A DNA stretch of 64,000 nucleotides from Tremella fuciformis (lineage: Eukaryota; Basidiomycota; Tremellomycetes; Tremellales; Tremellaceae), in NCBI GenBank assembly GCA_032768795.1, contig CP136499.1, forward strand, positions 558,001 to 622,000, read 5' to 3'. The first letter of the stretch is position 1, and each line of letters opens with the position of its first letter. Positions 19,716 through 59,961 of the stretch are shown one piece after another. The position numbers and the translations under genes are program-made. Under the pieces are notes generated by a model that saw nothing but the letters and a program-made list of their open reading frames with translations, ran no database searches and had not been told where the DNA came from.

Positions 19716-19780
19716 CAAATATTCTGGATATAATTGTAATTATTCCCGACAGGATTTCCCACGGTATCCCCGGTTTCCCA
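19716..19780 (+). repeat. MULE left terminal inverted repeat
   Basis: 65 bp. Shares with the reverse complement of 44955-45024 the blocks TATTCTGGAY, TTATTCCCRACAGGATTTCY and CACGGTATCCCCGGTTTCCC, with scattered mismatches. It lacks six bases near the tip (ACCAGA) present at the right end. Confidence 0.8.
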
Positions 19781-20151
19781 ATGCATAGCTCCGGAAAAGC
19801 AACAAGCTTGCGGAGGTTCTCTACACCTCTTGTCTTAGCCGTTCCCCAGCTCGGCACGCTGTCCCCCTCCCGCCAGAGGGTGTCTGCTCACTGTCTGACC
19901 ATACTACGCAGCGAGCGAAGCTGATTCTCACCCTTCTAATTGAATGGACCGCATCCATCAGGAAAGCTTCGCCGGAGGTCCTTTGTCGCAAGCGTAGAAG
20001 TTGATTCAACCTTACCTCGGCACAAACAAACATTGGGTTCGACGTTCTTGCCATCGTAGCTTCGCACTGTGTCTCTCACAGCTCTCATCTGCGTCTCTTC
20101 TCACCGCAACAACCGCAAACTTCAGCCTATCTTGACTTTTTACCCTACAAT

Positions 20152-22548
20152 ATGGCTCCGAAGCAGACTACACGCTCGCCGCGCGTCTCAAAGACCGCCC
20201 GTACTTCCGCGTCGACAGACCGCACCCTTCCTCCTCCTTCCGCTAAACTCTCGCAAGCCTTGCGGGAGTTTATGACCAAGGAAAAATCCCGCCATCCTAT
20301 TCACAGAAGTGAGGCGACCCTAGTCGCCGCAGAAAAACGATTTGGCGCTTCTATACAACCATGGTGGCACGCTAAGGACACTGTTCTTCCGGCCACGATG
20401 AGATCATTTGGCTGTCAGGAGGCCGATTACGACCAGTTGACCTCCGGTCAATATTATACCTGTCGATCTAAGGGCCCCGCATGTCGCGACGGTTGTGTTC
20501 AACACAAAAAGGAGTGCCTACCGGCGTTTGCATATGTGTGAGTACCTCCGCTGCCTTATATGTTACTTCCGCACACTCGCGGAACCGTCTCAAAACTTCC
20601 GCCCATGGCTCCGCTGACTGACAGGCATCCCTCCGCTGTGTGTGCCTCCGCCCAGAAGGCCGAGGGTGTCACACTCATCACTCGGACCTACGGAGGTCGG
20701 TTCGCCACCTGTCATGCGTGCTGGATGGACGGAAAACGTCCTCCCTGCAGTTGCGCACAAGTTCCGCTGAGCACTTCTACACAAGCCGGACCTTCGCAGC
20801 AAAGGGGCAATACCTCCTCTGAACCTCCGCCCTCCAGCGCCTCGCAAGACCAAGATCAAGACGAGCTGGCCGCCGAGTACGACATGGCCCCCGAGCAGTA
20901 CGATCCTGACTCCATCCACGTCGACAATCTGCCTGCGTCAGAACCGGTGGACGAGTCTTACCTCCGCAAACGACCTCTAGAGGAGGGCGAGGATGAGCTC
21001 GACTCGGACGGGGAGCCGATCGACCCTCCGTCGAAGAAGGTCCGTCGTCCGCTAGACGTCCGCCGCCTCTCTGGAGCACTCCAGAAACTTCCGTCACCTC
21101 GTTCTTCTCCCCAACCATCCTCCGCTGGGACCCTGAGTCTCCCTCCTTCATCGCCGCTCAAAACTCCGAGGCTGGACAAAGGCAAGCAGCGGGCGGAACC
21201 TGTTACTTCCGCGACAGCGAAACCTCCGCCTTCTCGCGGTCCATCTTGGCGCACTGATTCTCAAGCTCCGCATGACTCCCCCTTAGCCGATAGATCATTT
21301 AACAATGAATCACTCCGGCCGTCAGTTCCGCCCTCGTCTCCTGCAAAAGCGCCTATCGACTATGAAGCCCGCTGGCGACATATGGCAACCGAGCCTGGCA
21401 GTTCTCGGACAGCCACACCATATCAGACGCCTCCCGCACCTCCGCACGGTCAAGGACGTACCTCCGCTACCGTCGCACAGGTCCCTGCGCGCTCAGCTCT
21501 ATCTCCGCTGGCCCTATCCTCTGCGCCAAAAACCTCCGCTGCTAGCTTAGCACCCTCCGCTCCCATCGTTTCAACCTCCGCTGTGCCGACCTCAACCTCC
21601 GCAGGCCCTAGCAAAACCTCCGCAATCCCTCGCTTGACCTCCGCTATTCCCGAGCTCTCTTCCGCACAAACCTTCGCTGTGCCAGGAAGCTCCGCTGGCA
21701 CCGCAAAGTTGTCATCTGGCTCAGGTTTCCCGTTCCCTGGTTCTACCACAGCCACGACTGCGAAACAGCTGCAGACCACTTCAGAGATGTACGAAAAATT
21801 GTACTCCGCCATCGAAGAGATTCAATCCGTGGCAGGCAGACAAGAGACATTTCTCAAGACGATCTTAGAGGATGCTTGGCACACGTACGCCGCATACTTC
21901 AAGAGCACTCGCGAAGCGGTAGAGGCCGATTTTCAGAATTTCCGATATTTCATGAAGACCTGCACGGAGGTTGCGAAAGACGACCGAGCATTCTTTGCCA
22001 ATCTGGACAAGATAAGCAAAGAAAACGCGGAGGAGCTTATCAAATATAAGCGAACGGTTCGAATGCTTGAGGAGCAATGCTCCGAAGCACTGCAGGCCAA
22101 AGAACGTGCGGAGTCAGCAGCAGCAGAGAAGTTTCGAGCGTTGAATGCGGAGCTTGTGTCTAAGGAGAAGGCGAGGGAGGAATTAGCAAACCAGCTGTCC
22201 GATATGACCAACTTATGGCATTCGGCAATCTCAGAGCGGAAGGTCGCGGAAGTTCGAGAGAAGGAGGCCTGGGAAAAGGCCAATAACATCGTGGAGGAGA
22301 TGAAGACGCAGCGGGACGCAGCTGTTGCTGAGGCGACGCTCAATGCGGAGCTACGGGACGTCGCTCTGCGTCGAGCGGAGGAAGCCGAGGCTAGTGCGGA
22401 GGTTCAGCGGGACCGACCAAGAGTGCAGCGGAGGTACTCCTTTGGAGCTACGCCGTCTCTGGGCCCCATCCCCAGGCCTTTCCCCGCTCTGACTCTTCGC
22501 TCTTTGCCTTCTCACAAGAGCGCATCTCCTGTGTCGGGGAACGTTTGA
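20152..22548 (+). CDS. MULE accessory protein: Cys-rich module plus C-terminal coiled coil
   Basis: Two exons, 20152-20537 and 20625-22548 (intron 20538-20624, donor GTGAGT, acceptor ACAG), 769 residues. Domains by eye: a basic Ser/Thr N-terminus; two clustered cysteine groups at about residues 100-175 (CRSKGPACRDGCVQHKKEC and CHACWMDGKRPPCSCA) that could bind zinc; a long disordered Pro/Ser/Thr region (about 180-510) with acidic patches and repeated Thr-Ser-Ala; and a long coiled coil (about 520-740, for example LEEQCSEALQAKERAESAAA). It has no transposase or nuclease signature. It is convergent with the transposase gene, 140 bp apart, inside the same inverted repeats. Its sequence is packed with the octamer ACYTCCGC, including inside the intron. 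A DNA-binding regulator or anti-silencing role is inferred from context only. Confidence 0.75.
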
Positions 22549-22687
22549 TGCGAGCATCGTGTACATAGTTTGTTTCTCAGCCTTTGGGTCTACGTGTAAC
22601 ATGACCGCAGCTCGTCTCTTCATGTATGGTGACATGCATGTCTTGTGGTATGTCTTTTTTACATGTACTATGCATCCCAACCACTTC

Positions 22688-25595: not shown

Positions 25596-25750
25596 TGTTA
25601 CACAACGATGAGAGCGATGCATTCGTCCCTCTCTGCAGTTCTACATATATAAGCAGTCGCTCTGATCAAGCCATCTCCTTAAGGTTACTCATTTGGCCGG
25701 AAGAGGCAATTCTGAGCCTATGAGGCGTCCTCGGGGCCTATTGTTCAACA
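25596..25750 (-). repeat. Copia-2 3' LTR
   Basis: 155 bp, identical by eye to 40023-40177. In the sense direction it holds a TATA-like CTTATATATG that the Copia-1 LTR lacks, and only one copy of the CCCGAGGAC-type repeat. Confidence 0.95.
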
Positions 25751-27162
25751 CTCCCCCTCGAAGTCTGCAGGCTGCAGGTGGCCACGACAGGTCTGGCGGT
25801 TGTGCCAAGGACCCACCGGGCATCCCCAAGCCTGTTGATCTTCGCTCCAGGACGATATAGGCCCAAGATCAGACGTCGCGAGCGTCGCACGGTCCATAGG
25901 CCTGCCTCCTTCAGGCTGCCCGGAAGCGATCCTGCCGTTCTCCGCCATTTCTGCACCAAACTCAATGGTCTTGGTGTCTGCCGGTAGCCCTGATCCTCCT
26001 TGATGTTCTCCAGCTCCCCCTGCATGCATGCAGTCTCTTATTGCCCGTGCGCATGCAGCAAAGCGTTGCTGACGTGCGAGCTGATGGGTTTGACTAGCGG
26101 CATTTCGGCGTTTTGGCTTGACCACGTGGTGTGGCAGACGATTCGGAGCGCGACTGACTTTGTCATTCAACATCTTCCCGCTACCGCCGAAGCCTTCTAG
26201 ATCGCTGAATGCAGCCGCTAGGTGGACAAGAGCGCGCTCCGCGCCGGCAGGCGGACGGCCCAGACCCAGAGCTTCAAAATGGCGCGCGTGGGCGGCGGCG
26301 GGGAGCGACTTGGTGAGGATGTCCGCCTTCTGGTCTGCAGAGCTGACGTACCGCAGGCTGACTTTGCCTGTGTCAACAAGTTCCCGAATCAAATGATGCT
26401 TTATGTCGATATGTTTGGTTCGAGAGTGAGTAGTAGGCTGTCCTGCGAGTCTGATGGACCCCTGGTTGTCGCAGGAGAGCGGCGTTGGTGATCTCTGCTC
26501 GAGTCCTAGCTCACAGAGTAGATTCCTGAGCCAAACTGCCTCCTTGGCTGCTTCTGCGACAGCGATGTATTCGGCCTCGACGGTGGATGTTGACACGGTA
26601 GCCTGCCGTCTGGACGACCAGGTGATCGGCGAGCCCTTGAACTCCATCAACCAACCCGTGGTTGACCGCCGGGTGTCCTTGCAACCCGCCCAGTCCGAAT
26701 CTACCCAGCCCTGCAGCCCGCCGTCACTGCCGCCCAGCCTGAGCCCGACAGTCCGTGTGTGGGCTAGGTAAGTCAGGACGCCTTGTGCGAGGTCCCAATG
26801 CTGACGGGTAGGTGCTGCGAGTGCCCTGGAGAGGTATGAGGCCGCGAACATGACGTCCGGACGCGTGCAGCCCGCTAGCCATAAGAGACACCCGACAAGC
26901 TCTTGATAAGGTGTTAATGCGGCTAGGTCGTCGTCGTCTACCTTCGTCCTTGCGTCCTGCGGCAACGGTGTCGATCGTGAGCGTCTATTCATGTGCTCCG
27001 GGAAGCGCTCGAGCACCCTATCGATGTATGCGGGCTGACTCAGCCAGATCGTCCGCCTAGCCTTGTCCTGCGATACCTTCATGCCGAGCACGGTGCCGAC
27101 TTCCCCTATGACAGTGATTGTCCACTCGGCCTTGAGAGCGGTCCACAGGGCGTCTATCTCCC
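25745..27162 (-). pseudogene. Copia-2 Gag-Pol, 3' part (RT end, RNase H, C-terminal extension)
   Basis: Continues the Copia-2 frame after the Gypsy insertion: IDALWTALKAEWTITVIGEV, then the RNase H motifs GWVDSDWAGCKDTRRSTTG and EAEYIAVAEAAKEA and the end motif KADILTKSLP, then the 180-residue extension to a stop at the LTR edge. RNase H is almost identical to Copia-1. The extension differs at many residues (for example GAEMAENGRIASGQPEGG against GSVLMENGRTPSHQPEGS). Broken only by the Gypsy. Confidence 0.9.
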
Positions 27163-27934
27163 TGTCAGACCTGTACCCGGTGACCTGTATTAGATCCAAC
27201 TAAAGCTCACCTAAATCAATCTATCGGTTCAAGCTGCTAACTATTAACGACTATTCGTAACAGATAGTAACGAACAAGAGTAGAGTGGAACCAAGCTGGG
27301 TGAGGAGCGATCAAGACTCACTTCACTTATCTATCTCTCGTCACTGGTACGGTCGATTCTCTAAGTAGACGTTCTATCTAGAGGACTAGTTAACTAGATC
27401 GCTGAGGAACTTCCTCTGCGATCTTCCTTCTTAAGTATCTGCTGACTCTCGCCCGCTCTCACTCTGATCCTTCTAGCATCGTCCTTCGTGGATCGTTCCA
27501 TCGTTCTCCTAGTCGCTTCTACTCGTTCCCAATACTCTCTAGTATTCTCTCGTCGTCTCTCTTCTCTTCTATCGTCTTCTCTCCGCGCTGGCTTGCATCT
27601 AATCTCCTTGCGTGCCCGTCGTCGTCCTTATCGTCCTCGGTCTCCGCCCCGTGGCCCTGACTGTGAGATAACTCTATCCTCCGTTATCGTGGACCTGACT
27701 CTTGTCCTTGCGTGCGTTCCTATCTCAACTCGGCCGATGGAAGACTGAGACGTATCCTTCTATCGTTCTCCAGGTTGTTCCAGCGCTTTCAAGAGCAAGT
27801 CGTAGTTATTCGTGACTAATAGTGACGGTTCTATCGTACTCACGTTCTTCGGTTCGTAGGATCCTTTGGATGTTTCCGTCGGAAGTTGCCTCGTGGTAGT
27901 CTCGTGGTCAGGATGCCGTGTCGGTTTCCTGACA
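27163..27934 (-). repeat. Gypsy 3' LTR
   Basis: 772 bp, read as identical to 35297-36068. Contains the motif pair TATTCGT and CTAATAGT (about 27805-27825) that recurs through the element, and the 13-bp site TAACTAGATCGCT at 27391-27403. Confidence 0.95.
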
Positions 27935-28244
27935 CTCCTCCCTCCTTTACATCATGAGTCCCTTCATGATAAGATTAGTCGCGACTGATTTTTATTTGTT
28001 CTTGATACCGCCTATCGGTTGTCGCTTATCGTCCCGTTGCCTAGCAACGACTTTCTACATGTCGAGCATCTGCGAGTTGTCACCCTAGTTGCCTAGCAAC
28101 CGCTCGCTCTTGCGCCTGCCTCATACTCGTTTTTACTCGTAACGCCGTTTTGCCGATAGACGCCCGCAGGATACATAAGGGCGTGACTGCGCCCTCTCGT
28201 TGTTCGTTCGTACATCTACTTTTCTTGACCTTTGGCGTACCCCT

Positions 28245-29604
28245 ATGGCCCGCTCTCGCGCATCCGCCCAACGACGTGTGAGTACTCGATCATGTTCGTG
28301 GCTATTACTGACCAAGAGCATAAGGGACGCTTCACGCGCAAGTCCACCTCGCCCGCTATGACGCCCCTGCCTGAGTTGGACGAGTTGGCTCCGTCAAACG
28401 AAACCCGACAAGATCTCACCCAGATGGATGCGGACCCGAGTGAGTTACTACTACTCGCTCGTATTTGTCACTAATAGCAGATGAGACACCTGCCCTCCCC
28501 ACTCTCTCGGATGGAGAAGGCGTCACCCAGCCTCTCGCCCCCGCCGACACCGTCTCAGCTCCCGCTGCTCTCGAACGTGCCCCCACTGCCCCTCTGAACA
28601 CCGCCCAAGACAAGACTTCGTCGCCCGCCCCGGAGGCTGACAACAAATCCGAAGGTGTGTTTGTTTTCTTGTATTCGTGTGTATTCGTTCCTAATAGTTT
28701 CCAGATGGATCCGAGACTACTGATCCCGAGGGTAACGTCGATGAAGACCCTAGTAAGTCGTTCCTATTCGATTGTATCCGCAACTAATAGCAGCCTTCCT
28801 TCTTTCCTCCGATCCCCCCGCCATCGAAGACGAGCTGGACTCGTCGGAGACAGAGTCCGAACCCCCTCGCAAGAAGGGTTCCAAGGGGAAAGGGAAACAA
28901 CGCGCCATTGTCGATACTCCTATTCGCGAGCTCGACGAGACCAAGCCCATTCCGTCCACTCCGGAATCAGTTGATCCCGACGAGATCCTGGCCATTGTGA
29001 GTAGTTTCTATTCGTTACGAATAGTAACTAATTGTAGGACTATGCCACGTTCATGTCAGCCGCCCACGCGAGTCAGACCCCGTCTAAGTTTGTTCCGAAG
29101 GCAAGTGATCTCGTACTGTTTGGGGTTAATAGTGACGAATAGTCCCACACTGTCGATGTCCCCCCGCCCTACAAACGGCCGTCCGAACTTAAGGCCGGTG
29201 AGGCGCCGCCCAAGCGTGCTGCTCGCGGCACGCGCCCACTTTCAAATGAGAAGTTCGCCGAACAGCAAAATTATCCGGTCTCGGTTCCACCGTGCCGAGG
29301 CTGTCTCAAGGCCAAGCTTGTTTGTCGAGTCAAGCCAGGCTCAATTCGCTGTGCTGTGTGCACTTCGGCATGTTCTTTCTCAGACCCCGCGCCTTATCTT
29401 CAGGTTTTACGAGAGCATTTCCTTTCCCTCAAGGAAGGTCTGAAGGGACTCGAACGCGCTCGATTGAATTCGTCTACCTCCGGGACAGTCACTATCCCTG
29501 CGGGCACTTTTGCGGACATACATTCGCGCATTTCCCAGATAGGTGAAGCCGAGGCAGCTGTTCGTACTTTGGAGTCGCTGAAGAGGAAGAATAGGGAAAT
29601 GTAG
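28245..29604 (+). CDS. Gypsy antisense accessory protein with a Cys-rich (zinc-cluster-like) module
   Basis: Seven exons on the strand opposite gag-pol: 28245-28277, 28319-28439, 28481-28654, 28705-28752, 28794-28996, 29038-29100 and 29143-29604. They total 1104 nt, giving 367 residues; all phases agree. Introns are 41-50 nt; the last (29101-29142) is GC-AG. The N-terminal 210 residues are disordered, Pro/Glu/Ser-rich with a basic patch (PRKKGSKGKGKQRA). At residues 265-290 lies CRGCLKAKLVCRVKPGSIRCAVCTSAC, cut here as C-x2-C-x6-C-x8-C-x2-C-x3-C, similar in spacing to fungal Zn2Cys6 clusters except for the last gap. A helical C-terminus follows. Because it is antisense to the genomic RNA its introns cannot be lost during reverse transcription. 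Role unknown; DNA binding is inferred. The element's dispersed motif lies in most of its introns. Confidence 0.82.
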
Positions 29605-29785
29605 CATATAGTCATCTATCGTTGTACCTATGAAGTCCTCAATCGCACTGGGTGCTATTTGGGACTAATAGTTACTGACGACTTCTTAGATTATGCCTGT
29701 GCCCGGTCTCTTGCCTGACTGACTCTTGAGTTCGTTGTCGTTTGTTAGGTCGTATAGGCTCTTCTTTGTCGCTATTTGTCTTTAT
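29605..29785. other. short gap between the convergent antisense gene and pol in the Gypsy
   Basis: 181 bp between two convergent stop codons. T-rich, with another GACTAATAGT motif at about 29666. Probably shared 3' UTR/polyadenylation sequence for both transcripts. Confidence 0.5.
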
Positions 29786-32700
29786 TCATTTTGAATAGCT
29801 CCTATCTTTCTTGATTCCTCCGAATGTGTGACCAATGGGCTTGTCGGGGTGTCGCTCGTGGAATGTTCTTACAACCTCTGCCGCGTTTCTGACGTTCACC
29901 TCCGGCTCCCAGCCCACTTCATCGTCCCCGTAGCCTCTCCACTCCACTAGGTACTCGACTTTCCCATTCCTTGTTCTTCTTGAGTCCAGAATCCTCTCGA
30001 CTTCAAATTCAGCATCAGGCTCCACTATAGTTGGTAGTCCTTGTGGTTGCCCTTTTGGTCGTATTCGTTTGTCTTCGACGCTAATAACGTCCACAGGATG
30101 CAGTCTGGACACATGAAAAACATTGTGGATCTTGAGCGTCGCTGGTAACTTCAATTTCTTCGCGTGTGTTCCTATTGATTCTTCCACCTGGAAGGGTCCA
30201 TCTCGCCTGTAGTCGAGTTTCTTGCTGGGTCGTTTCGTGTTAAGGCCCTCGAGGTCCAACATGACATAGTCTCCGTCCTTGATCTCGACTTGAGGCTGAT
30301 GCTTCCTGTTGTAGTACTTCTCCATCTCCTTCCCTGCTCGCACATAGTTCTCCCTGCAGATTGAGTGCACCTCATTCATTGAGTTCGCACGTTGTCTTGC
30401 TTGCTGATTGTCGACTTTATTCGGTTCTAATATTTCCTGAACCCATCTAGGATGAAATCCGTGTAGCGCATAGAACGGGGTCATTCCTATCGTATCGTGA
30501 TGGGCGTTGTTGATGGCGAACTGGGCGAATGCCAACAACGGTGCCCAGTTGTTCTGGTCGAAGTTGGTGAAGATCCTCATGAATCCCTCTACTTTCTGGT
30601 TATGTCGCTCGGTTTGACCATCAGTCTGCGGCCTTCTTGCCGTACTGAGTGCCAATCGAATGTCGAATTGCTCCGTTAGACTCCTCCAGAAGTCTGATAC
30701 AAATTTACTTCCCCTGTCAGATACAATCGTGCTCGGCAGTCCGTATCTGGAGAAAACCGTATCGAATAGTAACGAACACATTTCGGGTGCGTTCAACTTT
30801 GTTACCGTGGGTATGAGCACTGTGTACTTTGTCAAGCGGTCGACCACTACTAGTATTGAATTGAAGTTGTTTGAGACTGGCAGCTCTTCGATGAAGTCCA
30901 TCGTGATGTCCTCGAACGGTAGGCGTGGAACTTCCAAGGTTCGTAGCTGACCTCTTGGTCTCTGGTTGAAAGGCTTGGTGCGCAGACAGGCTGTGCAGCT
31001 CGACACGTACTTGGTGACGTGCGCAGTGAGCCCAGGCCAGTAATAGTCCTGTTGAACCGCCTTCATAGTCCTTTTAACTCCTGGATGTCCTGCCAACGGA
31101 GTGTCGTGTCTTGAGTTTATGATCTTGAACCTCAAATCATCGTAGTCTGGGATATAGATTTTGCCGTCGATGCGGATGAATCCTTGTTGGTCTATTTCGA
31201 CTCTAGTATCGCTTGATAGTCGCAATTCGTTCCTAATATCTTCGAGCGGTTTCTGTGCGGCAATCCCTTCGATGACTTGCCTGCACTGCTCGTCCTTCAT
31301 ATACCCTTCCCTTACTCTGCTTCCATCGATGATCCAATCATACGTGTTCGGGTCTGCTGTACTGGGTGATTCGGTCGTTGTAACCCCATACATTTCAAGG
31401 GGTTCCTGGTCTTCGACGATTGAAGCTGTCTTCTTTGACTCTTCTAAGTTCGTCACTATTTGGTCCAATTCGTTCTCAGCATCGATTGTCTCGATCACCT
31501 GTCGAACCTTCGAGTCCGTTTGGTAACTGTCACCGCCTCTTGTCCCTGCCAGGTCAGGTCGTCTCGACAGGGCGTCTGGTACCACGTTGCCCTTACCTGG
31601 GGTGTACACTATTCGTAGATCGAAGCGAGCCAGGATCTCTGCCCATCTGGCCTCCCTGTTTGATACCTGCTTCGGCATGGTATACCCTATCAAGGGCTGA
31701 TGGTCGGTAACAAAGATTATTGGCCATTTGCTGCCCTCGAAATATGCTCGATGATGTTGTAAGCAATAAATAATTGCGAATAGTTCTTTCTCGGTGACAG
31801 TCCAGTTCTCCTCATTCGGTTTGAGCCTTGCTGAACCATAATGGATTGCCGTTCGCTTCATGGTGTTGCGATCCACATGGTAGATCACATACCCAATGGC
31901 GAAGTCCGAGGCATCCGTGTGTACCTCTATCGGGAGCTCTGGATCGAAGTGCCCGAGAATAGGCGGTGATGATAGGGCACCTTTCAGCGACTGAAATGCC
32001 TTGTCAGCCTCTTCGTTCCAAATAAACCTTGCTTTCTTCGACATCAACTTGTTGAGAGGTCTCGCAATTCCCGAGAAGTTGGGTACAAATCTTCGGTAGT
32101 AACTGAAAAGACCCACCGCAGATCGTAGTTCCTTCTGTGTAGTCGGGATAGGGAAGTTCCTAATAGTTTCTGTTAGTCCTTCGTCGGTTGCTATCCCCTC
32201 CGCAGACACCCTGTGTCCTAAGAATGTAATGCTGTCTTTCTCGAACTCGCATTTTGCTGCTTTTAGTCGAAGCTCCCATTGTCGTAGTATATCGAAGACT
32301 GTCTTGGTAAGAGCTCGAAGTTCTTCAACCGTTTTCGCGTAAATGAGAATGTCGTCGATATATACGTAGACACCTTTCCCTATTAGTTCCGAAAATATAT
32401 CGTTCATAAAATGTTGGAACGTTGCGGGAGCCCCTTTTAGGCCATCCCTCATCACAGTGGACTCGAACATACCAAAGATAGTCCTGAACGCTGTCAGGTG
32501 TTCGTGTCCTTCAGCCATCCGCACCAGCTGATAGGCCCCTGCCAAATCCAGCTTCGTGTAGAACCGTGCGTCACGTAGATCTGCCAAGATCTGCGAGATT
32601 AATGGTAACGGATAGGCGCTATTTACTGTGGCTTCATTTAGCTTGCGATAGTCCACGACTAGTCGTAAGCGTCCGTCTTTCTTCGGGACAAAGAACGCCG

Positions 32701-34165
32701 GCGATCCATAAGGTGATAACGAATGGTATATCTTTCCTTCCGCCTTCTCCTTTTCCAAGTATTCGTGTAAGGCGTTCTTTTCTTTCGGAGATAGTTGATA
32801 GAGAGGAGCAAGAGGCAGCTTACCTCCCTCCTTTAGTTCTATCCTGTGGTCGTACTGTCGATGTGGCGGCAGCGCTGCCGACCCACTCGGTTCTTCAAAC
32901 AAGTCTTCCCATCCTTGGTAGGCCTCTGGAATCTTGCTTTCCTTTGCCGAAGACTGTTCTTTCTCGTTCAAGGTCGTGTACGAGTCGCTCTCACTGGCGG
33001 TTACTCCGTTCACCTCTACCCTTGTTTGGTCGTATTCTTTCTCCTCAAGTGCTATTCGTCCCCATTTGTTCCAAATAGTCACATCTTGCAAATCTTCGAT
33101 TGCCGTCCAGTCCTCCGGATCGGTTCCGGCTTCATCCTTGCCGTATTTGTAATCGTCGTAGATTCCACTAGAATCATCGCTTGACTCATCATTCATCGTA
33201 GAAGGGTCACTGAGTACGGGAGTCCCGTCTTCCGTCCCAGCCCTTTCAAGAGGATCGTCCGCCATTGGCGCTTCTTCGTAGCTATTCGTTTCTGTTGCTC
33301 CTTCGCCATCGTTGCTTATTCCGGCCTCACCAGAACCTTCCTGGGTTACTGAGATCGGTCTCCATCGATTGCCGCTTTCCGCGATCTCGATGTTGTTGGG
33401 ATAGGTCGTCCCGGACGCATAGGGCTTCCTGTAAGCCTTCCCTTTTCGTCTGTGTGGTTTTCTCACCACAGGAGTGCACGGGAACTCAGCCCATCCATGC
33501 CTCGCATCAATGGTTACTCCGTTCTCGGCCATCCACGGCCATCCCAATACAATGTCGGCCCCATTTAATTCTGTCACAAGCAATTTGACATCTATTGGGG
33601 GATATTCGGGATGAAGTTGGATGTTCGTGTCGATATAGGTGTGAACCAGACCAAACGCGCTTGTACGTCCATCAAACATTACTACGTGTTTGGGTCGTTC
33701 GATCACGGTGTGGTTTAAGGTCTGGGCTATCTCTGACCTCCAGTCGACAAAGCAGGAGCTGGCTCCAGTGTCGAACAGGATGTTGGAGAGATATCCTTGT
33801 CGGCAATATAAGGAAGGGAATCCGCACTGGAGCTTTGCCCGGCCGCCAGTTAGGAGTACCCTCAATCGTAGATTCTCGGTCATGTTATCGTAGCATACAA
33901 TTGATCTTTTTGGTAGTAGTTCGTCCCCAATAAATTCTGTTCCGTTATAATTCTCGAATGCCGCACCTAGAGTGAGAGGTTTGTTTGAGCCCCGACTCCC
34001 TCTCAATTCGACGGGGCGCTTACTTTTGACTGTTGCGAGCTCGTAGAAGGGGTCGTGGTACGCTGGTAGGTGTTCGTAGCATTGGAAGAGACCACCGTTC
34101 CTTGAGATCGCGTCGATTGCGAACAGTCCTTGGCCTGATGACCACTCTGTCCGCAGGAAAAGCAT
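29786..34165 (-). CDS. Gypsy Pol polyprotein with C-terminal chromodomain
   Basis: 1459 codons. In order: aspartic protease LFDTGASSCFVD near residue 130; reverse transcriptase with PLPLISQILADLRDARFYTK and YIDDILIYAK near 600; RNase H (EVHTDASDFAIGYV, FVTDHQPLIGY); integrase zinc finger H-H-C-C (HDTPLAGHPG...CTACLRTK); integrase core with MDFIEELP, IVSDRGSKFVSDFW and RPQTDGQTERHNQK; and a C-terminal chromodomain (FEVERILDSRRTRNGKVEYL, VEWRGYGDDEVGWEPE) that in chromoviruses steers integration to marked chromatin. No stop or frameshift. Starts within the end of gag, in the -1 frame relative to it; ATG 34165 may or may not be used. Confidence 0.95.
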   Translation of the reverse strand: MLFLRTEWSSGQGLFAIDAISRNGGLFQCYEHLPAYHDPFYELATVKSKRPVELRGSRGSNKPLTLGAAFENYNGTEFIGDELLPKRSIVCYDNMTENLRLRVLLTGGRAKLQCGFPSLYCRQGYLSNILFDTGASSCFVDWRSEIAQTLNHTVIERPKHVVMFDGRTSAFGLVHTYIDTNIQLHPEYPPIDVKLLVTELNGADIVLGWPWMAENGVTIDARHGWAEFPCTPVVRKPHRRKGKAYRKPYASGTTYPNNIEIAESGNRWRPISVTQEGSGEAGISNDGEGATETNSYEEAPMADDPLERAGTEDGTPVLSDPSTMNDESSDDSSGIYDDYKYGKDEAGTDPEDWTAIEDLQDVTIWNKWGRIALEEKEYDQTRVEVNGVTASESDSYTTLNEKEQSSAKESKIPEAYQGWEDLFEEPSGSAALPPHRQYDHRIELKEGGKLPLAPLYQLSPKEKNALHEYLEKEKAEGKIYHSLSPYGSPAFFVPKKDGRLRLVVDYRKLNEATVNSAYPLPLISQILADLRDARFYTKLDLAGAYQLVRMAEGHEHLTAFRTIFGMFESTVMRDGLKGAPATFQHFMNDIFSELIGKGVYVYIDDILIYAKTVEELRALTKTVFDILRQWELRLKAAKCEFEKDSITFLGHRVSAEGIATDEGLTETIRNFPIPTTQKELRSAVGLFSYYRRFVPNFSGIARPLNKLMSKKARFIWNEEADKAFQSLKGALSSPPILGHFDPELPIEVHTDASDFAIGYVIYHVDRNTMKRTAIHYGSARLKPNEENWTVTEKELFAIIYCLQHHRAYFEGSKWPIIFVTDHQPLIGYTMPKQVSNREARWAEILARFDLRIVYTPGKGNVVPDALSRRPDLAGTRGGDSYQTDSKVRQVIETIDAENELDQIVTNLEESKKTASIVEDQEPLEMYGVTTTESPSTADPNTYDWIIDGSRVREGYMKDEQCRQVIEGIAAQKPLEDIRNELRLSSDTRVEIDQQGFIRIDGKIYIPDYDDLRFKIINSRHDTPLAGHPGVKRTMKAVQQDYYWPGLTAHVTKYVSSCTACLRTKPFNQRPRGQLRTLEVPRLPFEDITMDFIEELPVSNNFNSILVVVDRLTKYTVLIPTVTKLNAPEMCSLLFDTVFSRYGLPSTIVSDRGSKFVSDFWRSLTEQFDIRLALSTARRPQTDGQTERHNQKVEGFMRIFTNFDQNNWAPLLAFAQFAINNAHHDTIGMTPFYALHGFHPRWVQEILEPNKVDNQQARQRANSMNEVHSICRENYVRAGKEMEKYYNRKHQPQVEIKDGDYVMLDLEGLNTKRPSKKLDYRRDGPFQVEESIGTHAKKLKLPATLKIHNVFHVSRLHPVDVISVEDKRIRPKGQPQGLPTIVEPDAEFEVERILDSRRTRNGKVEYLVEWRGYGDDEVGWEPEVNVRNAAEVVRTFHERHPDKPIGHTFGGIKKDRSYSK

Positions 34166-35247
34166 AAGCCCGAATCCCTTCGTCTCTGCTTCTCGAACTC
34201 ACTCAGGCGTGGTCGCATACCCAGGCCCGCAAATGGGTTGCCATTCCATGGGGTGGTCGCACGCGGTGGCTGAGTGCTCTTGACTGTGCTGGTTTCTGAT
34301 GAGCGGTTAAAACTGGTAACGGTTGGTCGCACTCGCCCACTATTCGTCTCTATTTGTCGTTGTTCGTGCCTCTCTGGGCGTCCTTGTTCGTTCTTCTTCT
34401 CTTGTTCCCGCTCGAACATGCGTTCATCAAGTCTCGTGATCACCGTGACAAAGTCGTTCCAGGTCTTAGGGATTTCCTCCACCTTGGTAGCGATGGCGTC
34501 CTTGAGAGAGGGCTTCAAGCCTTCCCTAGCCTTGGCGATGAGGACCGAATCGGGCCAATCCAGCAATGATGATAACTGTTCGAACTCTGCAAAGTAATTC
34601 GTAACAGAAGACTTTTGTTGGATCGCTAATAGTTTCCGTTCGGCTGTATGAACTTCATCTGGATCTCCGTAGGTTCGTTTGATGTGTTTGATAAACAACC
34701 CGTAATCGTGAAGCCATCTAGGCTGATCGTCGACATCCTTAGCTAAGTGCGCCTCAATAGAGTGCAATGGCGCCTTCCTAAAGAACGATATCATATATCG
34801 GATCTTGGCATAGTCGGTGGCGTATCGGGCTGGTTGTAAGTCGAAGACCAGCTGACACTGCGTCAGGAATCCGGTGAGCTTGTTCCTTTCTCCTTGATAC
34901 TCGTCCGGAGAGTTGACCTTTGGTTCCTTGTTGTTCGATTTGTTCGTATTAGTCCCGAATTGGTTCACTCGATGCTCAGCCATCATCCTTTGATTCTGAC
35001 TCAACAGCAATAGTGCCTCACCAATCTTATCGAGTTGGGTCCTGATCGAAGAGAGCCCATCATCCTGGGTAGACTCCATCGTGTCTTCTTGAGCGCCTGG
35101 CTCGTACACGCCTGGCGTACCTTGGGCTCCTTCTCCTTCCTCCGTGGTAGTCCCAGTGGGAGGAGTGATCAGCTCATGCTCTGCGTCGGGATTGCCTGTC
35201 GCGCCTCGGTTCCTAAGGCCGTACCCGGTCGCAGGTGCAGAAGACAT
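34003..35247 (-). CDS. Gypsy Gag
   Basis: 414 residues from ATG 35247 (MSSAPATGYGLRNRG...). A disordered N-terminus is followed by a retrotransposon Gag domain (about 115-265, with FLTQCQLVFDLQPARYATDY and WLHDYGLFIKHIKRTYGDPD) and a basic linker. Then comes a CCHC zinc knuckle CFSCGQSGHQAKDC (about 365) and a Ser/Thr-rich tail. Forms the virus-like particle and packages the RNA. Its last 163 bp overlap pol in the -1 frame. I see no canonical X XXY YYZ slippery site in the overlap, so how Pol is expressed is open. Confidence 0.93.
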   Translation of the reverse strand: MSSAPATGYGLRNRGATGNPDAEHELITPPTGTTTEEGEGAQGTPGVYEPGAQEDTMESTQDDGLSSIRTQLDKIGEALLLLSQNQRMMAEHRVNQFGTNTNKSNNKEPKVNSPDEYQGERNKLTGFLTQCQLVFDLQPARYATDYAKIRYMISFFRKAPLHSIEAHLAKDVDDQPRWLHDYGLFIKHIKRTYGDPDEVHTAERKLLAIQQKSSVTNYFAEFEQLSSLLDWPDSVLIAKAREGLKPSLKDAIATKVEEIPKTWNDFVTVITRLDERMFEREQEKKNEQGRPERHEQRQIETNSGRVRPTVTSFNRSSETSTVKSTQPPRATTPWNGNPFAGLGMRPRLSEFEKQRRRDSGLCFSCGQSGHQAKDCSQSTRSQGTVVSSNATNTYQRTTTPSTSSQQSKVSAPSN

Positions 35248-35282
35248 GTCGTCTTGATTTGGTGGCTTGTCGAAGGATATGA

Positions 35283-35296
35283 GCGATCTAGTTATC
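35283..35296 (-). other. Gypsy primer-binding site, self-priming type
   Basis: Read on the minus strand, GATAACTAGATCGCTC follows the 5' LTR directly. Its TAACTAGATCGCT (13 nt) is perfectly complementary to the LTR's own sense strand at 35525-35537 (AGCGATCTAGTTA). This matches the self-priming scheme known for Tf1-type fungal chromoviruses, where the RNA 5' end folds onto the primer site, and would place the transcription start near 35540. Confidence 0.7.
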
Positions 35297-40002: not shown

Positions 40003-40022
40003 GAGACTTGGGACTTTTAATC
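40003..40022 (-). other. Copia-2 primer-binding region
   Basis: Minus-strand GATTAAAAGTCCCAAGTC directly after the 5' LTR, identical to Copia-1. Same tRNA-Lys(UUU)-like half-tRNA interpretation. Confidence 0.5.
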
Positions 40023-44316: not shown

Positions 44317-44327
44317 CCTCGCCGTTG

Positions 44328-44756
44328 CAAAACCCGATATTCTGGACAGGTTCGGAATTATTCCCTACAGCTTTTGGGGGGTAAAACCTACAGTTTGGCT
44401 TTGAAAGTTTCTCATTCATGCACAAGGTCACATACAGGATCTTGAATGGTATGGGCAGAAAGCTGGGTTTCTTGCGCTCCTTTTGATACCCAAGTTCAGC
44501 CTCATGCATGAATCCATGGTCAGCTACAGCCCGCCAAAAAAGTTCCGGCAGCAAAGTTCCGCCTGCATCTCAAGAGAGCTACATGCATGCTATCTGAATG
44601 ATCTTAGGCTTGAAAGCTTCCTCTCTTCTCAGGCTTTCTCATGATGTACATGCGAAAGCTATTGATGGAAAACTGAATGAGAGAGAAAGTTGCGGAGATA
44701 TGGGCGTCAAAACCTGTAGGGAATACCCCCCGACTTGTCCAGAATAAAGGTACCTG
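44328..44756. mobile_element. 429-bp non-autonomous MULE-like element (MITE)
   Basis: Flanked by an 11-bp direct repeat CCTCGCCGTTG (44317-44327 and 44757-44767). The left end reads CAAAACCCGATATTCTGGAC and the right end, inverted, CAGGTACCTTTATTCTGGAC. The ends then share an ATTCCCTACAG block, followed by AAACTTTCTC-type sequence. The left tip nearly equals the right tip of the large MULE (CAAAACCAGATATTCTGGAC), so the large element's transposase is the likely source of mobility. No coding capacity. Inserted within the large MULE near its right end. Confidence 0.75.
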
Positions 44757-44954
44757 CCTCGCCGTTGAGTCTGCGGAGGTTGGTGGCAATGTGTCTGACA
44801 GGCTTTCGCGCACCCTCAAAGTTGGCAGAGATGTCCGCTTCTGACTACATAAGAAGACTTGAGAGCTAGATATGCGCATATGCAATCTGGACTGGACGAA
44901 ATAGACTTTGTATGGTTCCGCCGGAGATCTGTAGAGTTCTCCGCTGAACCTGTC

Positions 44955-45024
44955 GGGAAACCGGGGATACCGTGAGAAATCCTGTTGGGAATAAATACGA
45001 TTATGTCCAGAATATCTGGTTTTG
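44955..45024 (-). repeat. MULE right terminal inverted repeat
   Basis: 70 bp. The reverse complement starts CAAAACCAGATATTCTGGAC and continues through TTATTCCCAACAGGATTTCT to GGTATCCCCGGTTTCCC, pairing with 19716-19780. Confidence 0.8.
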
Positions 45025-52489: not shown

Positions 52490-52544
52490 AGGGTAGACGC
52501 TGATGGTCTCGCTCGCGTGTAACGCGGTCAGGGCAAAAAAGCTC

Positions 52545-53848: not shown

Positions 53849-54115
53849 ACCTGGCATCTGCGATCGATGATCTAGCGGGCGTTGGCGGGAATGAGAAGGC
53901 ATTGGATGACAAGGTGAGGGTGATACTATTACCTTAGGCACCCCAGTTATGTCTAAGCAGTCAACTAATGGAGGCGCGGTCTCACTAATGCATATTTCTC
54001 TGCGCTGATTTGCTTCCGTCTACGGAAAACGGAAAACGGCAGGGGCCTATCTCGTCTTCTGATCCTCATCTCGCAAGCCTAACTTAACGCGCTCGGTCTA
54101 CTCGTACTCGGTCGC
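53849..54115. other. interval without a supported gene
   Basis: No coding signal. Contains CGGAAAACGGAAAACGG near 54023 and probably the 5' end of the Helitron, whose exact tip I cannot fix. Confidence 0.4.
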
Positions 54116-57100
54116 TTGCTTTACTTCTTACCATCTTTGCGTCGTTCTGATCTCTTATTCATGCTTGCTGTTCCTGTCTGCTCACGCTCAAGGCGGTGCG
54201 CTGCGCCCACTCATGTTGCGTTGCAGCTGTGTCATTTTCAGAAACCCTCCTATCGGCCAGGGTCGTCATCCCTCTTCAAATCCTGCTCTTTCTGCCGTAA
54301 CGCCGAGTCCAGGCGTGCCGCTTCAAAACGTCCAGCACCTCCTCATGCGTCCCCATCCGCAGGCCTCACTCCAAGCACTCAGCGCTCTCGCCACCCGCCA
54401 CCTCGACCCGTATCCCCGAGTCCCCAGCGGCCCGCTCCCCTTCCGTTGTCGCCGTCGGTGCGGGCACAGCCTGCCCGTACCCGCCGTCCCCCTGTACGTC
54501 CGTACGACACTCCCCCCACTCCGAGTCCATCGTCTCCACAGCCTCCTGTGCCGCCGCGGCCACCTCCCACACGGCGCAAGTGCTCAAATTGCAAAAGGAC
54601 TCTCAGCCTGGACGAATTTGTGGATGAGCACGGGAACGTTACCATCGCGCTCACGCGCAGTCCGACACCCGCACCGCACACCCTGCGGCAGCTCTTCCAT
54701 CCCAGGCGGTTCACGATCCCCTCCAGCCTCACGTCTCAGCCGCCCCCTCCACACCCCCACCAGCTCCCTCCCCGCCCGACTCTCCCCTGCCAAATCGCAA
54801 CATTGCGTCCCCGCCCCGCGCATCAAACGCCCTGCGCGACACACCTTTGCTCGATGCAGCCACCCTGTCCACCGAGGATATTTCCACGGTTGACCGGTTT
54901 TACGAGAGGTTGGATGCGATGCGCATGCGCGAGTGTCCGGATTGCCGGGAGCGCTGGTTCGACATTGATGTTTCAAAGGGTGCTTGCCAGCACTGCTATC
55001 GCGCTCGGGACAAGACCCCAGGCAAGTGGACTGCCTCTAATAACATGGATCCAGGTGGGCACGTTGAACTCGTCGCTGCGCAGCGCGTGCTGACCCGCAG
55101 GGCCTGATCTGCGCGCCCTTTGCATCGAGGCTGGCATCGAGCCCCCTCCTGTACCCACCCAGGTTGAGGAAATGCTGTTGTCTCTTGTCCACGTGCAGAT
55201 ACAGATCTGGCGGGTCGGCGGCATGCAGACCAAATACGCCGGTCATACTTGCCTCTTCCCTCGCGATCACGCCACATTTGCGGACCGCCTTCCGTTGCGC
55301 CCGGCCGATCTAGACGTCTTGATTGTGCGGCCCAAAGATGACGCCCTTTCCGCTCGGCTCGCTTCAAACATCGACTTTACCGTGCGCGCGAGGACCGTCC
55401 GCGATAACCTCATGGCGTTGAGGCAATTCCATCCGTCGTATCGGCGGGTCACAGTAGACTTTGACGCCCTCGCACAGCTGCCGGACGACGCCTCGGTCTT
55501 TGACCAGCTGACAGCGGTGCACGATTCACGTGGTACGGAGGAGGCGGCCGCCGCAAGGGCGGAACCCAACGATATTGACCCCGATCATGTACCCGCAGCG
55601 CTCGTGCCAAATCTCCCTCCATTGGCTCCTGAGCTTGACGATATGCGCGGTGCGCTGGCCCAGCTCGTCCCTTGCGATCCGCCCATCGCGGCTCCGCCCT
55701 CCATCGCCGAGGAGGAACCGCCACCCGAACCTCCGCCTGTCCTGACCGCACCGCGATTGCGCTCCACTCCCATCAACGAGTTCGACCAGACTTCGACACA
55801 TCTCATTGATGCATTCCCATTCCTTTCCCCTTCGGGGCGGGCCGATCTCAATGCCGACCGGCGCTTCAAAGTGTCGGAACACCACTACTTCAAGCATCTC
55901 ATGCGATATACCGACGGCCGCTTTGCCAAACATCCTAGATTCCGGTATTACGCTTTCAACTCCATAATGCGACACCGGTCGAGGCGCGCTGCGGCCTACT
56001 TTGTTGGTCGCAATGCCGATGACTCAGCTCTCAGCGCTGCGGATATCAGGGATCTCCTAGAAGACGATGCCTCCCGTCTGGCTGGTCGCGTGTTCCGGAT
56101 GGGTGCGACCCTACGCGGTTCTTCAGCTTACTGGGCGCAGCGCGCACGCGAGCTTCAACAAATGGTTCGTCAGCTTGGGTCGCCGTGCGCATTCTTCACA
56201 CTATCCGCCGCAGATATGCAATGGCCGGGCCTTCAGAGACACATGCCCAATCAACCGTCGTCAGTGGAGGCGGAGCGTGACCGGCAAAGGCGTACCGCGT
56301 CCAATGTCAATGAGAACCCTGCGGTCACCGCATGGTACTTCCAGAAACGCTTCGACGTCTTCTTTGCGACGGTCATCAAACCGCTTTTCGACGTCACCGA
56401 TCACTGGTATCGATTCGAATGGCAGGCAAGGGGTTCAAGCCACGTCCACGGTCTCATTTGGTCGCGCACCGCACCCTCGGCGCAGACAATCGATGACGCC
56501 TTGCCGGAGTCGGCGGATCGCTTCGTGTGCTTCTGGCAACGTCACATGTCAGCCATTAATCCCGGAGCGCACTGGCCGCCCGCCTCGAGACATCCTGCCT
56601 CCCTGACGCGAGCCGACCTATCATTCAGCCCCAAAGAGCTTGCAGAGCTCCTCAACCGCATCCAACGGCACACCGTCTGCAGCGATACCTACTGTCTCCG
56701 CCGCCCAAAAGGTTCCAATGCTGATACGCCTAAAGTCTGCAGATTCCGGTATCCCAAGCCTGTCTTGCGCACCGCAAGCCTGTCGCGCATCGGCCGAACA
56801 TACGAGTTCCGTGCGCAGCGCAATGACCCCCTCCTCAACGAGTACAACCCTGTAATGATATCCGCTTGGCGAGCCAACATGGACATCGCCGCAGTCTCTG
56901 ATCGACACGCCGTTACGACATACATTGCTAAATACGTCAGCAAATGTGAACGCCCATCTGAGAACTTTGTACAGGTGCTATCGGCTACAAGCCGTGCGGT
57001 ATCGGAGAGCGCGGCGGGACGAGTCGTCTTTCAAAAAATGTTAAGCAAACTTCTCACCGAGCGGGATTGGAGTGCACAGGAGGTGTCACATTTCCTCCTC

Positions 57101-59368
57101 GACTGCCCTGCCTTTGGAGCGTCACGTCAGTTCGGCTCGCTTTGTCTAGCGGTGCGCTGGTCACGTCGCCTACGCGATCCCGACTCGAATGATTCGACCG
57201 GAGAAATTGAGGCGGATGATTGGCGCGATCGTTACTACGATCGCCCTCGCGGCGCCCCCTTTGATTCAATCTCTCTCTATCAATGCGTGAAGGAATGGCG
57301 TCCCGCGAGGAGTCGTGGGGATCCGCCGGTGCGCAGGACAGAGGAACGCGTCATCCGGCTGTGGCCCGCCTATTCGCCTCATGACGAGCAGTCCGATGAG
57401 CGCCAGGACTGGTGCCGAGCGAAAGTTCTGCTGCATCATCCGCACCGCAACCCCGACACGCTCGACCTTCGCCAAGACAACGAGCCATGGTCTGTCGTAT
57501 ACAGCCGCTGCGTGGCGGACTGCGACCACGATCACGACGATACTCTCCCCAGCCGGCAGCGCACCGGTGTTGCGGACTCGCTGTCCGAGTCCGAGTTCTC
57601 CGACGGCTCGGCAGAGGAACTACCTCGCGAGATGGAAGACTTTCACTACCTGGCCGCTTTGGGGCCTCGGGGCCAATCTGATTTTGACGATCGCCTGTCT
57701 CGTTTGGGGAGGCGTGATCTGGACATCACACATGATTGGGCGGAGGATACCAACAGTTGGACGCTGTCGGGCTTGGAGTCGCGATGCGCTTATCTTGCCG
57801 AAGCCATCGCCTCTGTACGTCGCCTTTCCCTCCGTCGTCATATGCCTGACAAGCAGAGCGGCACGCTCGATGCGGACCGCGACCAGCGCATCGACCCCGA
57901 CGCGTTAAATGATGATCAGCGCCGCGTGTATCTCAAAGTCACACGTCACCATCATGCTCTTGTGGACGGACTTGCCCCTCTGCCATTCCTTCTCAACATC
58001 GACGGCACCGCAGGCACCGGCAAATCGTTCCTCATTGATGCCATATCCCAGTTTCTGAGCGACTCCCCGCTGGCCAGCACGCGCCCGATCTTGCGTCGCC
58101 TGGCCCCTACCGGCGTTGCGGCTTTCAACATCAACGGTGAAACCTACCACTCCGCCCTTGCGCTTCGCCCAAACCCATCGACATCCGGCCTTTTCGGGGA
58201 GGTCGCTCCAAGCCGGCTTGCCGCCCTCCAGGAGTCTTGGGGTGCAGTCCGCTACCTCATCATTGACGAGAAGAGCATGATCGGCACGCTCGGCCTAGCT
58301 CAGATTGATCGTCGCCTCGCCCAGATCTTTCCTGCCGCTGCGCACCCTTTCGGCGGTCTCTCTGTCCTCCTGTTTGGCGACTTCGCTCAATTGCCTCCGG
58401 TTGGCGACACGCCTATGTACTCGCGCAACCAAGGCTCCGCTATTGGCGATCTGGCCCAAGCAAGGTTTCACGGCCGGCGATGCTTCCCCGCCTTTGCCGA
58501 GAGCATCACACTTGGCCAAATCATGCGTCAGGCGGCCACAGATCCGCAGACCGTCGCGTTCAAAAATGTTCTCCGTCATCTGCGGTGCGGCAAGGTCGTC
58601 CCGGATGATTACGCTGTACTCCGCACCAGGAGTTGGGATCAAGTCGGTCTGGCGAACCGCGAATCATTTCGAGACAGCATCCTGCTTGCATCCGATCAAA
58701 CTGTTGATAAAATTAATCACAATACGCTATAGGACACTGGCCGCCCAGTCCTTCTCTGTCCGGCTCGTCACAGCGGGCCCGGAGCGCACCGCGCGTCCTC
58801 TCATGATGCGGAAGACGTGAAAGTCAGCCTCTTCCTCATGAAAGGTGCCAAGGTCATGATCACCCGCAACCTGTGGACGTCCGCAGGCCTCACCAATGGG
58901 ACAATGGCCACCGTTCACGAAATAGGGTTTTCCACTGCTGCACAGCCCGGTCGATCGCTCCCAGACGTCGTCATGTTGGCCTGCCCGGACTATCGCGGTC
59001 CGACAGACTGGCGCACCGCATCCGGCGTGGCGCTTGTCCCAGTCGTTCCCGTCACAGCCACTCGGAAGAAAGAAACAGTCACGTGCTCACGTACACAGTA
59101 CCCTTTGAAGCTAGCCTACGCCATCACCATACACAAATCCCAAGGGATGACCGTCGACAAAGCTCGGATCGATCTCGGCGAGAGCGAGTTTGCGCCCGGC
59201 ATCACGTTCGTTGCGCTGTCCCGAGTCAAGCGCTTAGACGGCATCCTCTTCAACGGCGCCCTTTCATGGGACCGCATCCGGGCCGCGGGCCTGCGTGCGG
59301 AAGAGGATGAAGAAAGACGTCGCGGCCTGTCTTTCAGCGAATTCCCGCGGTACGCACAGTCAGAATGA
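54116..59368 (+). pseudogene. Helitron RepHel (HUH Rep endonuclease plus Pif1-like helicase), one in-frame stop
   Basis: Begins with a Pro/Ser-rich region and a zinc-like CSNCKRTLSLDEF, probably with a frame change near 54645. Next CPDCRERWFDIDVSKGACQH (about 54930); intron 55055-55100; then EEMLLSLVHVQIQIWRVGGM. The Helitron-N/Rep region has the HUH motif SSHVHGLIW (about 56435) and the catalytic tyrosines in YIAKYVSK (about 56920-56945). The helicase has Walker A GTAGTGKS (about 58005), Walker B LIIDEKS, GDFAQLPPVGD and the C-terminal AYAITIHKSQG and FVALSRVKRLDG. The frame is open from 55101 to 59368 except for one TAG at 58730-58732, between Walker B and the C-terminal motifs; the same frame resumes directly (DTGRPVLLCP). 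Inactive unless the stop is read through. Confidence 0.85.
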
Positions 59369-59539
59369 CACAGATACCCTTCCTTTGGATCAAAACGCGG
59401 ACATGTGGCGCTGACGCTTGGCAACCTGACGGCGCTCGCCGCTGCGCTCTCTTACTCATTCTCCTTGACAACGCGCCGTTGTCCTTGACGACGAGGACCA
59501 TGGTCGTCATGGATGTCTGACGCTCATGCAGCATATATG

Positions 59540-59590
59540 ATACTGACGTACCGCGCACTGTCGCACCGCTATCTTTCGCACCGCAACTCT
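59540..59590 (+). promoter_or_regulatory. GCACCGC-rich sequence upstream of the 59617 gene
   Basis: Two perfect GCACCGC copies (59563-59569, 59578-59584) and a near copy (CCGCGCACTG, about 59551) lie within 70 bp upstream of the ATG at 59617, preceded by a TATATGATAC stretch (about 59534). Likely promoter or 5' UTR; a role of the heptamer is inferred. Confidence 0.4.
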
Positions 59591-59616
59591 CTTTATCATC
59601 TTCAAACTCGATCAAC

Positions 59617-59961
59617 ATGTCACTCGTCGTAAGAAACCAGAGGAGTGCCGTCTCAGCTCGCTCAACCAGCGCGTCCGTCGAGCGCCGCTCAGGCGGTGCC
59701 GCACCGCCCCCCCCCTCCGCCGCCCCCGCCGTCCCGTCAGCCGCCTCCCTCTCGCGCTGGAGTCCCAAAACACCGGAAGAAGCGCGAGATATCCTACCGC
59801 CGCACCACTCTGAGGTGAGTTCCCGGCTGCGCGGTGCGCCTCCCACCGCAACGCTGACTTCCCAGGATCTTGATGGGAACCCGTACCATCACCACCACCT
59901 GCTCGCCAACGAAACAAACGGTCGACTGGTTCGTGTATCCCGCATCCCGCCAAATCTGTAA
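59617..59961 (+). CDS. small Helitron-associated protein
   Basis: Two exons: 59617 to about 59815, then from about 59866/59869 to 59961. The intron has donor GTGAGT and acceptor CCCAG and is in frame, so the region reads open either way. About 97 residues if spliced: a Ser/Ala/Pro-rich first half with Arg clusters, then DLDGNPYHHHHLLANETNGR with a His run. No known domain. Same strand and about 250 bp downstream of RepHel. It contains or borders five copies of the Helitron heptamer. Unknown function. Confidence 0.5.
   Translation: MSLVVRNQRSAVSARSTSASVERRSGGAAPPPPSAAPAVPSAASLSRWSPKTPEEARDILPPHHSEVSSRLRGAPPTATLTSQDLDGNPYHHHHLLANETNGRLVRVSRIPPNL

Follow-up and report, generated by a model that had tools for sequence, protein, structure and literature searches.

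Private dispersed motifs and candidate VANC-like self-recognition in transposons of Tremella fuciformis

A window of 64,000 nucleotides from the basidiomycete Tremella fuciformis (assembly GCA_032768795.1, contig CP136499.1, positions 558,001–622,000; genome 28.1 Mb, 11 contigs) contains three transposons that each bear a short private motif dispersed along their length: a Mutator-like element (MULE1, motif YTCCGC), a Gypsy retrotransposon (CTATTMG) and a Helitron (GCACCGC). MULE1 and a second family, MULE2, each pair the motif with a diverged accessory gene, gene A, whose product we call protein A. Whether the MULEs, and perhaps the Gypsy element, encode a self-recognition system like that of plant VANC proteins is in our judgement evenly balanced; by analogy, the accessory protein would bind the motif and counter silencing of its own element.

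Private motifs exceed a Markov null

Scoring 7-mers against an order-2 Markov expectation, with distinct sequence contexts counted, we compared the best score of each element with 60 simulations (100 for split elements and for two extra loci). The best word of MULE1, CCTCCGC, scored 37.9 against a null maximum of 10.3 and led again in MULE2 (33.8 versus 10.3), its contexts being distinct in 28/29 and 27/29 cases. The Helitron gave GCACCGC (23.4 versus 10.7) and Gypsy gave ACTATTA/CTAATAG (15.3 versus 10.6). A preliminary description of this DNA had claimed private dispersed motifs in these three classes; they are present in all three, more strongly than it stated. The second Helitron family, HelB (6.1, null maximum 12.7), Copia1 (10.6, 14.1), Copia2 (10.3, 11.0) and four host segments (6.3–8.0, 9.9–14.4) stayed under their null maxima.

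Splitting the elements located the signal. MULE1 gene A alone scored 30.2, reached by 0/100 simulations; with gene A removed, MULE1 still passed (p = 0.01; AACTTCC first, CCTCCGC second), and MULE2 kept CCTCCGC at 20.9 (0/100). The Helitron Rep sequence scored 13.9 (0/100) and the non-coding part gave p = 0.02. With the antisense gene taken out, Gypsy retained ACTATTA as top word (p = 0.01), gag-pol alone gave p = 0.36, and a Gypsy relative on C4 produced ACTAATA (0/100). Locus L054 (9 kb) yielded GACACCC at p = 0.06.

YTCCGC occurs at 8.2 per kb in MULE1 and 8.4 per kb in MULE2 versus 0.99 per kb in 37 kb of host and flanking DNA. The MULE sites include coding ones and are divided 50/34 and 36/37 between the strands in the two families. 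The corresponding figures are 3.0 versus 0.16 per kb for GCACCGC in the Helitron and 2.5 versus 0.08 per kb for CTATTMG in Gypsy. Genome-wide there are 111 pairs of the form ACYTCCGC...YTCCGC; among the 100 listed, 45 lie in the five MULE1/MULE2 copies, which make up about 0.2% of the genome, and 55 elsewhere. None of the listed pairs falls within 10 kb of nine more distant transposase relatives (on C1, C4, C5, C6 and C8), while two further relatives, on C11, fall beyond the stretch that the listed pairs cover. TCCGC triples number 318 versus 776 for the reversed control, the 100 listed all being on C1 and C2.

Coding sequence carries the motifs beyond synonymous expectation

We shuffled synonymous codons within each gene, keeping protein and codon usage (400 shuffles for the named motifs; 150 for an unbiased 7-mer scan). 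In MULE1, YTCCGC exceeded its shuffled counts in exon 2 of gene A (32 versus 9.3, z = 8.3), in the transposase (15 versus 4.4, z = 5.5) and in the segment of gene B that encodes protease-like parts, described below (7 versus 2.4, z = 3.2, p = 0.0075). The equivalent MULE2 sequences gave z = 5.8, 3.8 and 4.7. The other elements showed their own words: CGCACCGC in Helitron Rep (7 versus 0.9, z = 6.8) and CTATTMG in Gypsy pol (7 versus 1.6, z = 4.8). YTCCGC had no excess in Helitron Rep (10 versus 9.1), Gypsy pol (3 versus 4.6) or Copia1 (5 versus 7.1), nor had TCCGC in HelB (4 versus 4.3). The unbiased scan returned CCTCCGC as top 7-mer in the coding sets of both MULEs (0/150 shuffles each); gene B alone gave p = 0.040 in MULE1 (AGCGGAA) and 0.020 in MULE2 (CCTCCGC), Helitron coding sequence 0.06 and HelB 0.14.

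Gene A and the turnover of motif positions

MULE1 occupies 19709–45025 (no strand assigned; terminal inverted repeat (TIR) arms 19716–19779 and 44955–45018). Its accessory gene, placed at 20152–22548 by the preliminary description, is confirmed on the forward strand as two exons, 20152–20537 and 20625–22548, encoding 769 amino acids. Exon 1 encodes an N-terminal domain; exon 2 encodes a Cys cluster, a low-complexity region whose 7-residue peptide repeats put the motif every 21 bp, and a coiled-coil-like end, the coiled coil having been read by eye. MULE1 is present in three copies, and protein searches of the genome found MULE2 in two (MULE2 at locus L058). The N-terminal domain is 47–48% identical between families over residues 12–132 and exon 2 29%, compared with 51% (294/574) for the transposase core. 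A single-sequence fold of exon 1 had a mean predicted local distance difference test score of 54 and was unusable.

The accessory intron is the densest motif compartment in both families: 5 sites in the 87 bp of MULE1 at 20538–20624 (p = 0.0008, counted on a near-identical copy on C5, the motifs being visible in the window) and 6 sites in 195 bp in MULE2 (p = 0.0067). The MULE2 intron (L058, about 900–1040) is a long inverted repeat with the motif in pairs.

Third codon positions are only 0.28–0.34 identical between the families. Fifty-eight MULE1 coding sites were compared; 51 lie in aligned codons, and 4 of these, as a raw count, coincide with a MULE2 site. In low-complexity alignment, another 10 sites of gene A fall no more than 12 bases from one in MULE2. 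Yet both families keep the YTCCGC core. The flanks have shifted: A at −3 (47/95 in MULE1 versus 22/86 in MULE2, p = 0.0012), T at −1 (38/95 versus 16/86, p = 0.0020) and T at −2 (11/95 versus 27/86, p = 0.0017), these positions having been picked after inspection of the data (7 tests, 5 with p < 0.05). The MULE motif is thus maintained while its positions turn over. Inheritance of fixed sites does not account for this pattern, whereas sites repeatedly won and lost under a single reader with a drifting preference do.

A third accessory-like match, interrupted by stops, sits at C11:192022 (35%, E = 1.7e-5), and a relative of the transposase is found some 12 kb away on the same contig. The protein database held no relative of protein A among 7987 candidates scored.

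A transposase gene with predicted protease parts

Gene B (about 22690–42762, reverse strand, split by Copia2, exon boundaries partly resolved) encodes the transposase, a SWIM-like zinc site, a ubiquitin-specific protease (USP)-type part and a Ulp1-like part. The MULE superfamily is recognized by a MULE DDE domain, TIRs and a target duplication of 8–11 bp; here we find a MULE DDE-type match (Pfam MULE, E = 3.1e-4, 21.5 bits, below the 27.6 cut-off), TIRs and a 9-bp duplication in two of three copies, which places MULE1 in the superfamily. A UCH match exceeds the cut-off in MULE1 (E = 2.3e-5, covering the His-box half only) and lies below it in MULE2 (E = 4.5e-4). Cys, His and Asp box residues, assigned by the box pattern as generally known for USPs, are invariant in both families, and solved structures gave weak deubiquitinase matches (E = 0.015–0.033). 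With both a Cys box and a His box, gene B is predicted to encode a USP-type deubiquitinase.

Ulp1 proteases have the residue order His-Asp-Gln-Cys. The corresponding part of gene B has a Peptidase_C48 match below cut-off (E = 0.0099), and among solved structures it matched none of that family, the only hit being unrelated (E = 0.31). The USP segment (175/446 identical) and the N-terminal segment (84/227) are both less conserved between the families than the transposase core.

Both families carry the two protease-like domains in the transposase gene (in MULE2 at L058, about 3300–6470). The protein database yielded three transposase relatives, all without names, and among the papers screened by title and abstract opening none described a USP-bearing MULE. 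The genome holds a further MULE transposase family, 36% identical, as open frames at C4:1811879, C1:8170603 and C8:1536178.

The Gypsy antisense gene

The Gypsy element (27163–36068, reverse strand, with a chromodomain) lies within Copia2 and has 772-bp long terminal repeats (LTRs) with 0 differences and a 5-bp duplication, CTCCC. A gene runs antisense to it at 28291–29604 on the forward strand, with introns at 28440–28480, 28655–28704, 28753–28793, 28997–29037 and 29101–29142. It keeps one frame against the C4 relative (about 88%): from 28320 on, the nonsynonymous rate Ka is 0.112 and the synonymous rate Ks 0.528 (Ka/Ks 0.21; 0.095 for pol), two exon indels are of 3 and 6 bases, and the window frame contains no stop but the terminal one. 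The antisense gene described earlier at 28245–29604 is thus real from 28317 on; its first exon could not be aligned and the start is either 28291 or 28245. Counting the one in the window, 18 matches to this antisense-gene segment cover 1504 or more of its 1506 bases at 98% or above.

The encoded protein has a Cys cluster, CX2CX6CX8CX2CX3C, and after it a probable coiled coil. This resembles fungal Zn2Cys6 regulators (cluster CX2CX6CX5-12CX2CX6-8C); the protein differs in its last spacing, 3 rather than 6–8, and has no Pfam zinc-cluster match at E ≤ 10.

The five introns are 73–95% identical to those of the C4 relative although Ks is 0.53, and they account for 7 out of 21 CTATTMG sites in 27153–35586 (20 after removal of a duplicated LTR site). 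Splicing accounts for some of this conservation, since several CTAATAG sites combine the branch point with the 3' splice site. Site by site, 14/22 are identical to the relative: 6/9 in non-coding sequence against a background of 0.415, 7/11 in pol against 0.544 and 1/2 in antisense exons against 0.337, numbers too small for single-site conservation to be decided. The antisense gene is a plausible reader of the Gypsy motif.

Helitrons with and without a motif

The Helitron (about 53990–59990, forward strand; Rep/PIF1 frames 55094–58732 and 58733–59368) has 18 GCACCGC sites along some 6 kb, whereas the remaining 58 kb of the window has 6. Two accessory candidates had been put forward for it. The small gene at 59617–59961 (forward strand) was rejected: its product is not rich in Cys, and it is read in another frame than its only relative, a decayed fragment at C4:264052–264407. 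The zinc-like N-terminus of the RepHel protein is weakened by Cys pairs at the same place in HelB, which has no motif. The Helitron is therefore a motif-bearing family that lacks a supported accessory gene, a combination the preliminary description had named as telling against its proposal. The Helitron motif is real, and its reader may possibly be the N-terminus of Rep.

HelB, a Helitron family without a private motif (L049 with L048, L050 and L055), has 36 matches of equal score, and the three copies compared are 99.98–100% identical over shared stretches.

Comparison with known systems

To our knowledge, plants are the only group in which transposons are known in any detail to counter silencing in a sequence-specific way. 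We found no fungal counterpart of the VANC system in the literature, judged by titles and abstract openings, with most subscription journals outside the scope.

According to PMC5735166, VANC21 binds YAGTATTAY, a motif enriched in VANDAL21, mainly in non-coding sequence including the VANC intron; the sites stand in arrays of a single orientation, often tandemly repeated. The VANC protein, which has DUF1985/DUF287, shows lower conservation than the transposase. The two MULEs likewise encode a non-transposase protein, carry a dense, element-private short motif that is also found in the accessory introns, and have an accessory protein more diverged than the transposase, with peptide repeats in its variable region (compare PMC10398659 and PMC5735166). 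Their motif differs in lying also in coding sequence, on both strands and mostly outside DNA tandem repeats; the YTCCGC core is kept rather than changed between families, and the TIRs are about 64 bp and not degenerate. Neither DUF gave a match at E ≤ 1 in MULE1 protein A or in MULE2 exon 2 plus 34 N-terminal residues. Protein A is thus VANC-like by analogy rather than by detected homology.

Spm TnpA and MuDR MURA are, according to PMC10398659, transposon-encoded proteins linked to demethylation of their own element or family, MURA acting on TIRs; the MULE motifs differ in running along the whole element. Helitron-borne VTD and OTU deubiquitinases (PMC9741609) share with gene B a deubiquitinase domain in a transposon, whereas here a USP-type domain and a Ulp1-like part sit in a MULE transposase gene.

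A proposed scheme and its alternatives

In the scheme we propose, YTCCGC would be a recognition site for an element-encoded protein, most likely protein A, with its conserved domain at the N-terminus, its Cys cluster, its rapidly changing middle part and its coiled-coil-like end. Bound at numerous sites throughout the element and on either strand, most densely in the gene that encodes it and in the intron of that gene, protein A would mark the element as self and most probably keep its chromatin open against host heterochromatin or RNA interference, as VANC does in plants. The USP-type and Ulp1-like parts of gene B could be the effector, and the Gypsy antisense protein, together with the ACTATTMGT-like motif, may be a separate system that arose independently and works on the same principle. 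In favour of the scheme, the host has five Piwi matches above cut-off, at three positions, and one each to Pre-SET and DNA-methylase. That protein A binds the motif, that this counters silencing and that such systems are convergent are inferences. A bolder version, which we hold to be doubtful, has at least two and possibly three unrelated transposon classes independently evolving a private tag with its own reader, protein A directing the deubiquitinase and Ulp1-like domains of gene B to strip silencing marks, and the Gypsy introns serving as both splice units and binding sites. The interpretation first offered for this DNA finds partial support: it is supported for the MULEs (motif, diverged accessory gene, second family, dense introns), plausible for Gypsy, and loses its Helitron accessory. 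If the scheme is right, self-recognition would be a recurrent transposon strategy, with the same anatomy in MULEs that have no detectable VANC homology and a core kept while its positions turn over.

Several observations weigh against this scheme. Few families were sampled; neither protein A nor the Gypsy antisense protein has a known DNA-binding domain among its Pfam matches; the Helitron carries a motif without a credible accessory gene, and HelB thrives without a motif. The short N-terminal segments of gene B miss significance in targeted shuffles (p = 0.0525 and 0.0675), as does the MULE1 gene B region by itself in the Markov comparison (p = 0.15). In the unbiased scan, Gypsy coding sequence taken alone has a family-wise p of 0.47, so its coding evidence comes from the targeted test only. 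The reversed control of the paired motif is the commoner pattern genome-wide (171 versus 111), which means that the motif is clustered, not rare. Coding sequence of Copia1 (p = 0.020) and Copia2 (p = 0.027) is enriched in CTGCAG- and CTCGAG-type words, at p values lower than the Helitron's and as low as those of gene B alone. The Copias, offered earlier as a motif-free contrast, hold up in their whole-element scores and fail in this weak coding excess; the contrast is one of strength rather than of presence or absence.

Such excesses bear on another account, in which the motifs stem from repeated codons or peptides, biased composition or local duplication. The 21-bp spacing set by the gene A repeats, the inverted repeat formed by the MULE2 intron sites, the Gypsy sites that are splice signals, the weak gene B region and the Copia words all point that way, as does a mixed 9-kb locus (L053, C10:104000–113000) that beats the null with ATATATA (18.5, seven words in distinct contexts), so that a high score alone is no proof of function. 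We nevertheless think this account very unlikely: the excess is measured over shuffles that keep the peptide, nearly all MULE contexts are distinct, and the signal survives removal of gene A from both MULEs and of the antisense gene from Gypsy. Binding by the element's own transposase or Rep, for assembly or cis-preference, with some other task for the accessory gene, is unlikely but deserves more weight. It would accommodate the Helitron and the zinc-like Cys sites seen in the gene B translation, and transposase-binding repeats are common in DNA transposons; yet the MULE sites cover the whole element on both strands and are densest in the accessory gene and intron, not at the ends.

A host transcription factor driving element expression would suit the likeness of TCCG/CGGA to fungal zinc-cluster half-sites, a site-dense intron that could be an enhancer, and the occurrence of YTCCGC outside MULEs (2.2 per kb in the Helitron, 1.8 per kb in Copia2). 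Each element has a different motif, however, the host DNA tested has few sites per kb, selection is seen throughout coding segments and flank preference differs between the MULE families; we consider this decidedly unlikely. To much the same degree we doubt that the accessory protein represses its own element as a form of copy control: the few MULE copies beside the 36 HelB matches, and the motif-dense intron of the accessory gene itself, would fit self-limitation, but Gypsy, with motif and accessory gene, still has 18 near-identical matches. Recognition of YTCCGC by protein A in aid of its own element is the reading that we retain.

Layout of the window

The elements form a nest: Copia2 (25596–40177, reverse strand; 155-bp LTR stretches with 0 differences) lies within MULE1 and has Gypsy inserted in it. 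Copia1 (8047–13731, forward strand; 164-bp LTRs with 0 differences) and the Helitron stand apart. The two Copias, used as controls, have in common a weak CTGCAG-type excess in coding sequence.

The window copy of MULE1 is an older one, about 1% diverged from the other two, which differ from one another by 6 mismatches and one 10-bp indel. Target duplications of 9 bp, GAAGTGGAG and CTCTGGAGG, read from the flanks, border these two copies; none was seen at the flanks of the window copy. The window copy also contains a 440-bp insert (about 44315–44757) that is absent from the two others; with TIR-like sequences on both sides, it looks like a small non-autonomous relative.

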